Below are positions 2,450-13,560 of a stretch of 64,000 nt of DNA, one piece after another. Position 1 is the stretch's first letter. Every line of letters begins with the position of its first letter. The notes beneath the pieces are model-generated. The model saw nothing but the letters and a program-made list of their open reading frames with translations. It had not been told where the DNA came from and made no database searches. Source of the stretch: Daphnia carinata. Taxonomy: Eukaryota > Arthropoda > Branchiopoda > Diplostraca > Daphniidae. Location of the stretch: positions 1,550,001 to 1,614,000 of the forward strand of contig NC_081335.1 in the NCBI RefSeq assembly GCF_022539665.2, read 5' to 3'. A program made the translations under genes and the position numbers.

Positions 2450-4341
<1,892 letters not shown>

Positions 4342-8091: not shown

Positions 8092-8890
8092 TCTATTTTA
8101 TCAACGCGACTTCGGTTTAAAGATCCCATTTACTATTTGATCCGATAGGTGCCATGATTAACATGCGACAGCACGAAGCAAAGTAAAGAGCGCTATTTGG
8201 AATGAGAAGGCTATCCGTTTCAAACTTTATCATTTAGCTCATTTTATAATTTTTCCTTCAAACACTATAAGACGAACGGAAATATCAATTTGATTTTCAT
8301 GAAATTCATTCAATTTCGAATCGAAATGTATGTTCCACGGAGAAAAACAAAGTGTCGCTAACAGCACTTTATTTTCTTTTATTTTCAAGACGGCTGGTTT
8401 AAGAAGAACACCAATAGCAGAATTGAAATCAGCATCGCTAGCATTGTGTCACGCTAGCGCTGTAGCATACTGGCGCGCGAGTAATGGTTTCCATTCGCAC
8501 ACACGCTAATTTTATATTTTAGATTATTCAAAAACTATAAACTCTACGTAAAAATAGATTTCATATTCGTGTTTCTTGTTAAATTTTGAATAAGAATCAT
8601 ATATTGTTATCTAGATTTGTGATATTATTTTCTAACAGGAAAAAATTTTAAGCCCGAGAATATAAGCCCGAGAAGGCTATATAGCCTATGGCAATCCGTT
8701 TTACACACAAAAAAAAAAATTTCGCCAAAAAAAAAAAAATCACACTTTTTTCTTTTTTTCCGACACGTAGCCATCTACCGCTCAGACCCGTTATTACTGG
8801 CGTAGGCAATTTCAGTCCATTAGATGCCATTCGCAGTTAGTTCAGTAGCGTGGATGGAGAATAACGAGTGGCTGGAGGAACAATTGAAAA

Positions 8891-9467
8891 ATGAATAAGA
8901 TAATACAACAAAAGGATGGTAAGTATAAACATTATTATATTGGTTTTCAGTTATTAATTATTGTTTATTAGATCAAATTATGAAGCTGCATGCCCAATTA
9001 TTGGAACAACACAAAATATTAGATAACAGCAAAGCTAAGGATGGTAAGGCCTAATACGTAATGATTCTATTTATTTGCTTTTATACATTTGTGTTTTGTA
9101 GCTCAAATTTTGAGTCTACAAGCTCAGCTAGGGGAAAAGAACAAATTGGAACAGAACAGTTTCCAAACAGTGAAGGATGTTTTTCCAAACTCATCCCTAA
9201 CTGAACATGAGGATGAATTGGCATTAGGCGAACACAGTCAGGTACCTAAACTTTTCAAATAAGAATTCAAAATAAGTATAGAATTTTAACAAACAATTAT
9301 TTATTGTTTAGTTATTCAGTCTACCACCTGACAGTGTGTTAAAGTTAAATTCTGTTAGTGCTGCACTAAAAGAATTGTTAGTAATTAGTCCATGCAGCGA
9401 AGGAAGTGAACAATTGTGGGACCGTATTTGGGCTGAAAATGGGTGTGGTATGGAAACCCAGAAATAG
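8891..9467 (+). CDS. Unrecognised small coiled-coil-like gene in the left arm
   Basis: Four exons in consistent phase with GT-AG borders: 8891-8918, 8972-9043, 9102-9241, 9312-9467, giving about 131 residues. Exons 2 and 3 begin with related units (DQIMKLHAQL and AQILSLQAQL), suggesting exon duplication and a short amphipathic helix. The last exon contains ELLVISPCSEGSEQLW and a WAENGCG segment before the stop. I recognise no family. A further exon-like stretch lies downstream, 9566-9664 then 9728-9901, ending in CSDEHHTWTL and a stop; it could belong to an alternative form or a longer ancestral gene. The right arm has a shortened copy. Could be a decaying copy of a host gene elsewhere in the genome. 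Confidence 0.4.
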
Positions 9468-10420
9468 CATGAGTTCAACATAAAACATGAATTAGGTACT
9501 TTTCGTTTTTTTGTCTATCGAAAAAGTATTTTTAATGCTATTATTTTGCATTCACAGAATTTTAGTGGGGGATCAAGTCAAGTCTGGAAGTGTTACAGGA
9601 TGGAAGAGTGAGCCTGCAGTTGAAAAACACTGAAAGTACATTACCATTAAGGTATGAGGTAAAGTAATAGAGTATGCAAATTGTCTAATGAGAAGTACCA
9701 TCTTGTGTGAATGAATCCTTTGTAACAGCAATCCTTTATAGTTCTGTCACAGCTAGAAGCCTCAAATAATTTTGCTTCTCTTGCTAAAGAACAACTTGTC
9801 CTTTACGTTCAGAGTGTTGGTGAAGCTGGGTACTTAAATGGCCCTAAAGATGTTTCATTTCGTTGGCATTGCAGCGATGAACATCATACATGGACTCTTT
9901 AGGTATGAAAGGAATTTTCTTGAAAATTTTTTGAATTTATGACAAAGCATTTCTCCTGCTTTTTGCCAACCATGTCTAATCTAAAAAAAAAAAATTTATC
10001 CAATAGGAAAGGATTTTCAGCATACTGGGAACACAACTATCAACAATGCAACATTCTAGGGGTGTTATTTTATCATTCAAGAGCCTTATACAATGATTTT
10101 CATCTGCAATTTGTATGGCCTTTCCCAAGCTTCTGCCAGAAGTTGAATCTATAAGTCATGTAAGTCACATGAGCAACAATTGAGATGCTTAATGGTGTTG
10201 TTTTTCTTTTCTCAGTGTAGGTTAATAGTAACATTGGATCTGAAAAAATTCTTGGTTGGGGCATGACACTGAATAAATTGTAATGATTGGATGGATGACA
10301 TGACATTTCTATACTTAATTTGGATTCCCGAGACGGTATTTTATATTTAAAAAATTGAAGTGCATATCTGGGCTCCCTTCCTTTCCGTAGCCCCGTTTCC
10401 CCTTGACTCGTAATAAGCCC

Positions 10421-10693
10421 GTAGGGGGTCATGCCCCTACTGTACGGTATATATAAAAACAACATATACCGAGGTTTGGAGGGCTCTGGCCGGAAAGGGG
10501 ACGTGGATGTCCGCTTAGTCCGATGATGTGTTCACGGAGGGCTCTGTGGCTACCCACAAATCCGAACTAAAGGTTAATCGCTACTGTAAAAATGTTCCAA
10601 ATCTTCAGCTCTTCTTCCGGCTTCTCTTAGCCAATCACCGGGTAATCTCCCCGGTGGGTCAACAAGGCAGTGTCTCCCCCTGCCTGGGTTGAC
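10421..10693 (+). other. Cassette of four consecutive perfect hairpins, left-arm copy
   Basis: Four stem-loops follow each other: GTAGGGG/CCCCTAC (10421-10427 with 10434-10440), CGGTATAT/ATATACCG (10445-10452 with 10464-10471), CACCGGG/CCCGGTG (10636-10642 with 10650-10656), and a compound stem GTCAAC/GTTGAC plus GGCAG/CTGCC (10658-10693). The local composition is GC-richer than the surrounding AT-rich DNA. A phrase GGAGGGCTCTG occurs twice between the second and third stems. The same cassette is present in reverse complement in the other arm. It looks like structured RNA or a recombination or packaging element of an unknown mobile unit; function unknown. Confidence 0.5.
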
Positions 10694-11039
10694 GGCAACT
10701 TTTGAAAGGGCTATTGTGCCTTTTTAAAGTTGCAAAAATAATTGTGGTGTGCAGAGAATTGTCAATAAAATTTTTTTTATAAAATATTTTTTGCAAAATT
10801 CGTTTCTTGCATTGTCTGTGTTAGCTGTATTCACACATTACATATATCAACTTTTTTTTTTTGCTTTGCTTTATTTGTTTTTGTCACCTTTGATGGTAGG
10901 CATTGTTTCCATTAGTTTATCGTTTATCTGTAAGTATTCAATTATTATTTATTGCACTCCTTGAATTCTTCAACTTAGATTCAAGGAACAACGTGTAATA
11001 TCTGGATATTTTTTGAAGTAATTTTGTATTTTGTTTTAC

Positions 11040-11104
11040 TCGTATGGGAACCGATCCCCAGACATTCAGCGTGCAACGCCGATGCTCTAACATTGAGCCA
11101 CGAG
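11040..11104 (-). other. tRNA-like sequence 1 in the palindrome spacer (pseudogene or SINE head)
   Basis: The minus strand has a tRNA-style D arm (GTGGCTCAATGTTAGAGC), a 5-bp anticodon stem TCGGC/GCTGA with loop GTTGCAC (anticodon TGC if functional), and a T-arm with GGATCGGTTCCC. The acceptor stem does not pair properly, so it is probably a tRNA-derived relic, not a working tRNA. Confidence 0.45.
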
Positions 11105-11206
11105 ATATATCTAAATATTTTATTATCGCATATCATGTTATCGTCTAGGATGTTTATGCAGTCTTTCACAAGTATATATTTATCTTTCTTCTGGTTTCAT
11201 AAGTTT

Positions 11207-11270
11207 CATAGCTCTGTGGTATAGCCTTTAGCTGCGATACTTGTTACCCTGGGTTCAAACCTCAGTAGAT
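11207..11270 (+). other. tRNA-like sequence 2 in the palindrome spacer
   Basis: An A-box-like TGTGGTATAGCC is followed about 35 bp later by a B box GGTTCAAACC. It resembles the tRNA-like unit at 27366-27422 in order and wording (TGTGG-ATAG, then GC-rich stem, then GGTTC). Internal Pol III promoter boxes are present but no good acceptor stem is. Probably a SINE head. Confidence 0.4.
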
Positions 11271-11395
11271 GTGTAAAAATGAAGTAGAATAAATGTAGTA
11301 GAGTATATTGCAGGATTGCTTTTCAGTTTTATTCTAAGTGTAAATGCAAGTCCACAAGTGACTAGAAAAAAGCCAACTTGACATCATATGATTCA

Positions 11396-11452
11396 TGGCT
11401 CATTGGTAGAGCATCGGCGCGGTATGCCGAACATGTAGGGTTCGATCCTTGG
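11396..11452 (+). other. tRNA-like sequence 3 at the inner edge of the right arm
   Basis: Reads TGGCTCATTGGTAGAGC (A box and D arm), an anticodon stem TCGGC/GCCGA with a 7-nt loop, then B box GGTTCGATCC. It sits exactly where arm similarity starts. The acceptor and T stems are degenerate, so a functional tRNA is unlikely. Confidence 0.5.
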
Positions 11453-11700
11453 ATAATAATAGAATGCTTACAGATAAACGTTAAACCAATGGAAACAATA
11501 CTTACCATCAAAGGTGACAAAAACAAATAAAGCAAAGCAAAAAAAAAAAGTTGATATATGTAATGTGTGAATACAGCTAACACAGACAATGCAAGAAACG
11601 AATTTTGCAAAAAATATTTTATAAAAAAAATTTTATTGACAATTCTCTGCACACCACAATTATTTTTGCAACTTTAAAAAGGCACAATAGCCCTTTCAAA

Positions 11701-11990
11701 AGTTGCCGTCAACCCAGGCAGGGGGAGACACTGCCTTGTTGACCCACCGGGGAGATTACCCGGTGATTGGCTAAGAGAAGCCGGAAGAAGAGCTGAAGAT
11801 TTGGAACATTTTTACAGGAGCGATTAACCTTTAGTTCGGATTTGTGGGTAGCCACAGAGCCCTCCGTGAACACATCATCGGACTAAGCGGACATCCACGT
11901 CCCCTTTCCGGCCAGAGCCCTCCAAACCTCGGTATATGTTGTTTTTATATATACCGTACAGTAGGGGCATGACCCCCTACGGGCTTATTA
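11701..11990 (-). other. Four-hairpin cassette, right-arm copy
   Basis: Reverse-complement copy of the 10421-10693 cassette: GTCAAC/GTTGAC compound stem, CACCGGG/CCCGGTG stem, the ATATACCG/CGGTATAT stem and the GTAGGGG/CCCCTAC stem appear in mirrored order. Conservation between arms is nearly complete here. Confidence 0.5.
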
Positions 11991-12497
11991 CGAGTCAAGG
12001 GGAAACGGGGCTACGGAAAGGAAGGGAGCCCAGATATGCACTTCAATTTTTTAAATATAAAATACCGTCTCGGGAATCCAAATTAAGTATAGAAATGTCA
12101 TGTCATCCATCCAATCATTACAATTTATTCAGTGTCATGCCCCAACCAAGAATTTTTTCAGATCCAATGTTACTATTAACCTACACTGAGAAAAGAAAAA
12201 CAACACCATTAAGCATCTCAATTGTTGCTCATGTGACTTACATGACTTATAGATTCAACTTCTGGCAGAAGCTTGGGAAAGGCCATACAAATTGTAGATG
12301 AAAATCATTGTATAAGGCTCTTGAATGATAAAATAACACCCCTAGAATGTTGCATTGTTGATAGTTGTGTTCCCAGTATGCTGAAAATTCTTTCCTATTG
12401 GATAAATTTTTTTTTGTAGATTAGACATGGTTGGCAAAAAGGAGGAGACAAGCTTCATCATAAATTAAAAAAATTTTCAAGAAAACTCCTTTCATAC

Positions 12498-12719
12498 CTA
12501 AAGAGTCCATGTATGATGTTCATCGCTGCAATGCCAGTGAAGTGAAACATCTTTAGGGCCATTTAAGTACCCAGCTTCACCAACACTCTGAGCGTAAAGG
12601 ACAAGTTGTTCTTTAGCAAGGGAAGCAGAATTATTTGAGGCTTCTAGCTGTGACAGAACTATAAAGGATTGCTGTTGTACCGGATTCATTAACACAAGAT
12701 GGTACTTCTCATTAGACAA
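12498..12719 (-). pseudogene. Exon-like segment ending CSDEHHTWTL in the right arm
   Basis: An open frame that includes FIVLSQLEASNN and LVLYAQSVGEAGYLNG and ends at a stop after CSDEHHTWTL. The left arm carries the same segment at about 9728-9901 with a few substitutions. An acceptor (ACAACAG or GTAACAG) precedes FIVLSQLEA in both arms, with a GAG-GTAAAG donor about 70 bp upstream, so it looks like a last exon. No family recognised. Confidence 0.35.
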
Positions 12720-12935
12720 TTTGCATTACTCTATTACTTTACCTCACACCTTAACGGAAATGCACGCTCAGTGTTTTTTCAACTACAGGCTGACTCTTCC
12801 ATCCTGTAACACTTCCAGACTTGACTTGATCCCCCCACTAAAATTCTGTGAATGCAAAATAATAGCATTAAAAATACTTTTTCGATAGACAAAGAACGGG
12901 GAAGTACCTAATCCATGTTTTAGGTTGAACTCGTG

Positions 12936-13138
12936 CTATTTCTGGGTTTCCGTACCACACCCATTTTTGGCCCAAATACAGTCCCACAATTGTTCAGTTC
13001 CATCGCTGCATGGACTGATTACGAACAATAATTGAGCCTGCAGGTTCATAATTAGAGCTAAAAAACAATAATTAATAATTGAAAACTAATATAATAATCT
13101 TTGTACTTACCATCCTTATCTTTTATTATCTTATCCAT
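12936..13138 (-). CDS. Shortened right-arm copy of the unrecognised small gene
   Basis: Two exons on the minus strand, 13111-13138 and 12936-13057, give about 49 residues. It starts like the left-arm copy and ends with the same VISPCS.G.EQLW and WAKNGCG segments. The deletion that removed about 370 bp joins NLQAQLL directly to the VISPC segment and keeps the frame open. Unknown function. It may be chance survival of a frame in a decaying duplicate. Confidence 0.3.
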
Positions 13139-13560
13139 TTTAACATATTTTTCTCCAGCCACACGTTATTCTCCATCCACGCTACTCAATTAACTGCGAA
13201 TGGCATCCAATGGACTGAAATTGCCTACATGCCAGTAATAACGAGTCTGAGCGGTAGATGGCTACGTGTCGGAAAAAAAGTAAAAAGTGTGATTTTTTTT
13301 TTTTTGGCGAATTTTTTTTTTTTTTTGGGGGTAAAACGGATTGCCATAATAGCCTTCTTACTTTTTCAATTTTGGCAAAATTTTATATTTCGCTTTAAAT
13401 ACATAGTTTCGATGCAGAATTTTACCGGCATCACGAATATGCGGTTGGTTTTTTTCATTAGGTTAATATTTTTTTATTAAAACGTAAAAAACCGTGAAGT
13501 TGGGTTTAAAAAATAAGCCCGACAAAATATGTCCGACTTTTTCATTTTACCACCATTTTG

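Follow-up and report, generated by a model that had tools for sequence, protein, structure and literature searches.

The 64,000-nucleotide stretch analysed here (the window) belongs to a 9.75-Mb contig of the 108-Mb Daphnia carinata genome and contains a 4.66-kb palindromic mobile element (8687–13348) that carries the same hairpin-rich cassette in both arms. The left arm (8687–10948, plus strand) and the inverted right arm (11453–13348, minus strand), delimited by arm-to-arm comparison, are 96% identical in their inner part and 88% identical in their outer part, with positions 9004–9373 of the left arm having no counterpart in the right. Between them lies a 504-bp centre (10949–11452) with decayed tRNA-like stretches, recognized partly by eye, such as the one at 11040–11104 on the minus strand, antisense to the left cassette. 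ARAGORN made no tRNA call in the window and a single one across 20 loci tested; in that locus (L023) the centre keeps a tRNA-like sequence called as tRNA-Thr (ggt). The conserved cassette, of about 440 bp, occupies 10335–10775 on the plus strand and is mirrored at 11626–12066 on the minus strand. Over 10421–10693 the two arms differ at a single position (A/C at 10583), in agreement with an earlier account of the cassette as intact in both.

That preliminary description had reported four tandem hairpins within 10421–10693. The span holds four perfect stem-loops against a mean of 0.54 in dinucleotide shuffles, none of 500 shuffles containing four or more, and the claim that they exceed chance is borne out. 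H1 (10421–10440; 7-bp stem, loop of 6) and H3 (10636–10656; 7-bp stem, loop of 7) are near-invariant, and H2 (10445–10471; 8-bp stem, loop of 11) is AT-rich. H4 (10658–10693), which shows compensatory changes, consists of an upper part (10665–10685; 6-bp stem, loop of 9) followed by a small internal loop and then the GTCAAC/GTTGAC pairing. A fifth hairpin, H5 (10695–10733), lies beyond the span originally reported and occurs as several differing sequences that refold. The predicted fold also includes a domain (10473–10632) closed by a long-range helix (10473–10501/10610–10632), with inner helices at 10504–10507/10553–10556 and 10513–10521/10539–10547; the phrase said to be repeated between the hairpins, GGAGGGCTCTG, is indeed present twice, starting at 10478 and 10536. 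All these features are on the plus strand, as is a poly(A)-signal hexamer, AATAAA (10764–10769), near the 3′ end of the cassette. GC content is 0.516 in the reported hairpin span against 0.352 in the adjacent arm (9300–10330) and 0.394 in the window, so the span is GC-richer than its surroundings, as had been stated. The four-hairpin cassette is therefore real, but its extent was drawn too short: the unit runs from about 10335 to 10775, takes in H5, and has H2 as a part that is not general. H2 was found in window-type copies and at loci L065, L066 and L073, and the diverged families described below have replacement sequence there.

Upstream of the left cassette, on the same strand, are the exons of a predicted small gene (8891–9467), whose frame is cut short in the window copy by a stop at 9465–9467, identified by eye. 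When the joined exons were compared with the database, all 15 matches (from 24 candidates) were uncharacterized D. carinata LOC proteins of 102–162 aa, and four of the eight LOC relatives retrieved end in LEF right after the fourth exon. An intron acceptor and a short last exon can be seen by eye ahead of the cassette. None of the five LOC proteins scanned, nor any of the exon pieces, reached a Pfam cut-off, and thus no known domain was recognized. The conserved poly(A)-signal hexamer that terminates the module and the predicted multi-exon gene upstream share one strand.

The element is bounded by the termini TATGGCAATCCGTTTTAC ... GTAAAACGGATTGCCATA and flanked on either side by ATAGCC, a possible 6-bp target-site duplication in window flanks that are themselves palindromic. 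Most of the 18 elements examined share the TATGGCAATCCGTTTTAC ends, and TA..TA termini (TATGGC...GCCATA) are present in the window and in most of these elements. Both ends could be located in 12 elements; among these, a script found an exact 6-bp duplication in two (ATAGCC in the window, GATGAA in L010), a third was seen by eye in L029 (TCATTT, outside an additional terminal repeat) and none was found in the other nine. The 18-bp terminal motif TATGGCAATCCGTTTTAC is tandemly repeated at some element ends (window 8687/13348; L012, L014, L020, L027, L029 and L030) and also appears in other, nested elements, such as a 567-bp element at L013:1826–2392. TA..TA termini and 6-bp target duplications are given for IS3EU in the part of PMC10045372 that deals with the IS3EU/GingerRoot DNA transposons, and the window's family resembles these in its termini and, in a few copies, in its duplications. 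Unlike them, as they are portrayed there, it has arms that make nearly the whole element palindromic and shows no IS3-type transposase: neither the exon pieces nor five related LOC proteins gave a Pfam match to a transposase, an IS3/IS481-like DDE domain included. Since no transposase was seen, the window element is IS3EU-like at most.

The cassette core is present in more than 900 copies in the D. carinata genome, mostly as facing pairs inside mobile elements. The exact H1 20-mer and the exact H3 21-mer each have 937 genome copies, and with up to three mismatches there are 431 matches to the 40-mer 10473–10512 and 851 to the 35-mer 10636–10670 (H3 and the first arm of H4), 812 of the latter being exact. 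By comparison, a flanking 35-mer gave 558 matches, of which 60 were exact by hand count among the matches listed. Of the first 100 H3 sites listed, which all lie on contig C1, 86 belong to 43 convergent pairs 1043–1171 bp apart and 14 are single, with no divergent or tandem pairs, which makes the palindrome the usual unit among these sites; in the window's family, each element carries two units tail to tail. These hundreds of copies in palindromic elements support the earlier suggestion of a cis element of an undescribed mobile unit. Contig C1 also has a 3.4-Mb interval (6.72–10.08 Mb) free of exact H1 and H3 copies among the matches listed, with one element per ~100–200 kb on both sides; this gap is perhaps a centromere region. 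Arms within one palindrome are 97–99% identical in L029, L030, L032 and L034 (88% in L031 and 93% in L033), and those of L029, L030, L032 and L034 are ~85–94% identical to the window's left arm, a difference that suggests homogenisation between the arms of an element.

Sequence diversity is distributed very unevenly along the arms. In 40-bp windows across 58 arms, it was 0.001–0.011 in 10414–10493 and 10614–10733, ~0.055 in 10494–10573 and 0.016–0.20 elsewhere. As loci L009–L028 had been chosen by similarity to 10300–10800, which biases variation there downwards, 20 more copies (L035–L054) were chosen via the flanking 35-mer, at which flank diversity is in turn artificially low. The flank-chosen sample repeats the pattern of the cassette-chosen one: in these 20 copies and the window, pi was 0.006 in 10414–10493 and 0.014 in 10574–10735, against 0.053 in the middle (10494–10573), 0.035 upstream and 0.199 in the inner arm. 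The preliminary description would have been contradicted by stems decaying at the same rate as loops; aligned over the core, 25 diverse copies vary less in paired columns (pi 0.076) than in unpaired ones (0.170), for a structure derived from that same alignment. H1 and H3 hardly vary in either the stem or the loop, and the primary sequence is therefore constrained too. Because the cassette is nearly unchanged while the surrounding DNA drifts, it has a job, probably, and most likely as a folded RNA near the 3′ end of transposon messages.

Covariation was examined in an alignment of 25 of the 99 extracted cassettes, chosen for diversity (A4); among the rows of a 32-row alignment (A3) that it omits are near-duplicates and the truncated L015 and L024. 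The plus-strand RNAalifold consensus has 67 pairs and an energy of -73.5 kcal/mol, vs -62.1 on the minus strand. In the main fold, 98.2% of cells pair across the 25 copies and 29 cells carry double changes, against 10.9 in shuffles (none of 500 as high) and 0–2 when partners are slid, counts that lean towards this fold since it was derived from the alignment counted. These double changes fall in 5 of the 67 pairs, a count that 17 of 500 shuffles match, and 245 of 500 match the count of pair types; most pairs vary little. H5 was counted apart from the consensus: 86.4% of its cells pair in the 25 copies, and double changes affect 6 of its 15 pairs (shuffles 2.6) and 14 cells (shuffles 5.2), with none of 500 shuffles as high in either count and 0–5 double-change cells with slid partners; its pair types were reached by 109 of 500 shuffles. 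In H4, a C-G pair has become U-A in 11 of the 25 sequences and the variants refold. At L056, L069 and L072, H4 is extended apically into a long hairpin, and H5 is absent from these three and from L075 (4 of the 25 copies). An inner helix of the 10473–10632 domain has three pairs with double changes, and the long-range helix that closes it has none in the 25 copies, so its support comes from folding and one-sided changes. Compensatory stem changes, proposed earlier as support for a functional RNA, were thus found across the diverse cassettes in both the main fold and H5, and together with the strong constraint they favour a structured RNA.

Several observations bear on the strand. An AATAAA or AATACA follows H4 within 90 nt in 26 of the 30 H4-bearing copies, compared with 18% of shuffled tails; in 20 of these 26 the hexamer lies 68–71 nt past H4, and in L056, L069 and L072, which have no H5, it lies 18–19 nt past it. 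Read on the plus strand, H5 shows G-U in 16 cells and A-C in none (the G-U cells being spread over window-type copies, L055, L068, L073, L074 and others), which fits a plus-strand RNA. Over all 48 Watson-Crick-majority helices there are 241 G-U vs 220 A-C cells (225 vs 220 without H5), and a 7-bp helix at 10405–10411/10556–10562 leans the opposite way, with 3 G-U and 34 A-C. Folding energy beats shuffles on both strands (mean z -4.1 on plus and -3.7 on minus in 17 copies), and for the window copy itself the minus strand gives the better fold (z -5.3 vs -3.4). Neither folding energy nor G-U against A-C over all candidate helices gives a clear winner.

Among the 99 extracted cassettes, 17 are diverged, with 76–79% identity to that of the window, and lie behind unrelated 5′ sequence. 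They include one context family formed by L055, L059–L061, L063 and L064, a second formed by L056–L058, and a lone context, L062. Comparing the families places the conserved module between ~10335 and the hexamer at 10764. No second cassette was found in L055–L058, for which at least 1.4 kb behind the cassette was fetched; the 0.6–0.8 kb fetched for L059–L064 is too short to show one. L065:655–2153 is a palindrome with the cassette on both sides and two differing outer arms and upstream sequences. L056 and L057 contain a short GC-rich tandem repeat at ~2700–3080, after the cassette (GGCGAGGCGAAGACGGGGCGAC in L056, by eye). In a second species, the 143-aa frame antisense to the cassette matches three predicted Daphnia magna proteins, P0001–P0003 (3 of 10 candidates). 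They share two pieces with it, in the same order, which correspond to the two conserved blocks, the second piece having been matched by eye. When P0003 was compared with the D. carinata genome (best 150 of 2057 candidates scored), the eight best matches held internal stops, and we therefore take the D. magna proteins for gene predictions placed across a conserved block that is non-coding. Judged by these sequence comparisons, the module is common to several element families, with pieces in D. magna. The upstream small protein had no D. magna match at E 0.01 in a word-based, length-limited search, yet pieces of the cassette are found in D. magna models, which means that the RNA block may outlast the protein.

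Known RNA classes offered no identity for the cassette. Rfam gave no match at gathering score in the window, ribozymes included, and a permissive scan of the cassette gave a single match at E 8.6. The same scan of six diverged copies gave 17 matches, all far below cut-offs, the best being a microRNA precursor model on the long H4 of L072 (E 0.00047, 32.7 bits, cut-off 93). A ribozyme or other known RNA was accordingly rejected, and the earlier idea of a ribozyme relative found no support in these scans. A viral or bacterial origin was also set aside, as the exact hairpin patterns are absent from viral_contigs and genome_contigs, in searches with exact 20- to 32-mers, which miss remote relatives. 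A plus-strand TATA-driven or polymerase III RNA gene was rejected as well: the TATA-like loop lies in H2, which is not general, and TTTT runs occur within the plus core of 17 of 24 delimited copies (25 given). Among the titles and opening lines of abstracts of mostly freely accessible papers on Daphnia genomes, transposons and structured RNA, we found no description of the element.

The explanation we favour, to which we give about an even chance, is that the cassette is a structured 3′-end RNA module (~440 nt) of Daphnia mobile-element transcripts that engages a host factor stabilising or exporting the RNA. The cassette would be transcribed on the plus strand within the 3′-terminal untranslated part; the transcript would fold into H1, the branched domain, H3, H4 and H5; and the folded module would recruit a host factor through which the element RNA is stabilised or exported, in a manner that may be akin to ENE triple helices or to the CTE/RTE export elements of retroelements. 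The broken coding frame of the window copy counts against it, as does the lack of any transposase among the Pfam results. The main rival, which we regard as unlikely, is a role at the DNA level, with the inverted hairpin-rich blocks acting as binding or cruciform sites (for a chromatin factor, or as a cis element of replication or transposition) and the palindrome as the functional unit. The invariant loops of H1 and H3 are also what a DNA-binding site would give, and the convergence and narrow spacing of all 43 close H3 pairs among the first 100 sites listed, the 88–99% identity between arms of one palindrome and the lack of an overall G-U over A-C excess agree with such a role. It is harder to reconcile with L055–L058, which carry no second cassette (L059–L064 do not decide the point), with the polyadenylation-type hexamer retained at one end, and with H4 and H5, which swap sequence and keep their pairing, something that a sequence-specific site would not need. 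We consider it improbable that the invariance reflects no selection at all, being due to recent origin or biased gene conversion among non-autonomous transposon copies. The few sublineages with shared variants would fit, as would arms that are often closer to each other than to those of other elements; but the same flank-chosen copies vary far more in their flanks (0.035 and 0.199) than in the blocks (0.006 and 0.014), whole-cassette conversion would not leave a variable middle between those blocks, and the module is common to families that are otherwise unalignable, with pieces in a second species.

In two further readings the product comes from the minus strand. One, a slim prospect, is a SINE-like polymerase III transcript with a tRNA head, which would start in the tRNA-like centre and run outward through the cassette. 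Viewed by eye, the tRNA-like stretches of both the window and L055 point toward the cassette on this strand, where the window copy also has its best fold; against this stand the near absence of ARAGORN calls, a TTTT run within the minus core of all 24 delimited copies (25 given), the weaker consensus fold and the G-U cells of H5, with no A-C, on the plus strand. tRNA-derived SINEs have an intact tRNA-like promoter at their 5′ end; the element resembles them in having tRNA-like sequence near a conserved body and differs in that its tRNA-like parts, which to the eye look like tRNA halves, are decayed and antisense to the cassette, and no SINE ends were found. It is scarcely credible that the cassette codes for a protein on the minus strand, as the 143-aa open frame and P0001–P0003 would have it. 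Among the 45 longest frames listed from a scan of 20 loci, open frames of 142–152 aa come from at least 7 loci, and overlapping proteins are annotated in D. magna; the internal stops in the eight best P0003 matches (shorter, lower matches can be open), the lack of any Pfam family and the restriction of what is common to D. magna to two pieces of the frame point the other way, and a protein-coding cassette was rejected on the stops in diverged copies.

For the 3′-end RNA module that we favour, the closest parallels are found among retroelements and other transposons. The ENE (element for nuclear expression) has a U-rich internal loop between stems, which pairs with poly(A). In the portion of PMC12501189 concerned with it, the ENE is a structured RNA in transposon 3′ UTRs, for example in Arabidopsis Evade, and engages the poly(A) tail in a triple helix. 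The cassette would resemble it, as portrayed there, as a candidate 3′ UTR RNA structure of a transposon, close to the poly(A) tail. Unlike the ENE, H5, which lies closest to the poly(A) signal, forms an almost unbroken helix in several families and is missing in 4 of 25 copies; no ENE-like U-rich internal loop was seen, since in the listed variants, L070, L068 and L066 for example, H5 is interrupted at most by one small internal loop or bulge. Elements of the RTE/CTE type are marked by RNA export through the NXF1 pathway. The passages of PMC1363727 on export elements describe the RTE of mouse IAP elements (226 nt) and the CTE of simple retroviruses (173 nt) as structured and cis-acting on RNA export, with reporters in which the export element is placed between the gene and the 3′ LTR. 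Compared with these by description, the cassette is likewise a structured RNA candidate carried by mobile elements; unlike them, as vertebrate retroelements, it is found in crustacean elements with DNA-transposon-like termini. The best reading is that the cassette would work like an ENE or an RTE/CTE without being one.

Non-autonomous DNA transposons are thought to need their ends only, and an internal block that is near-constant in hundreds of copies and several families demands explanation. As a more doubtful proposal, a family of cut-and-paste-type Daphnia transposons may carry a large structured RNA, not a transposase, as its selected part: there are more than 900 near-identical cores, the encoded protein would decay or be replaced, and this RNA, by itself or together with the small protein, might permit spread or tolerance. 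If true, this would be the DNA-transposon counterpart of retroelement RNA elements. The block also carries a warning for annotation, as LOC models in D. carinata lie upstream of it on one strand, and OUZ56 models in D. magna overlap it on the opposite one. In Daphnia, sequenced species and clonal lines make the idea of an RNA function testable, and an RNA role of the cassette would mean that DNA transposons, like retroelements, employ structured elements in their transcripts.
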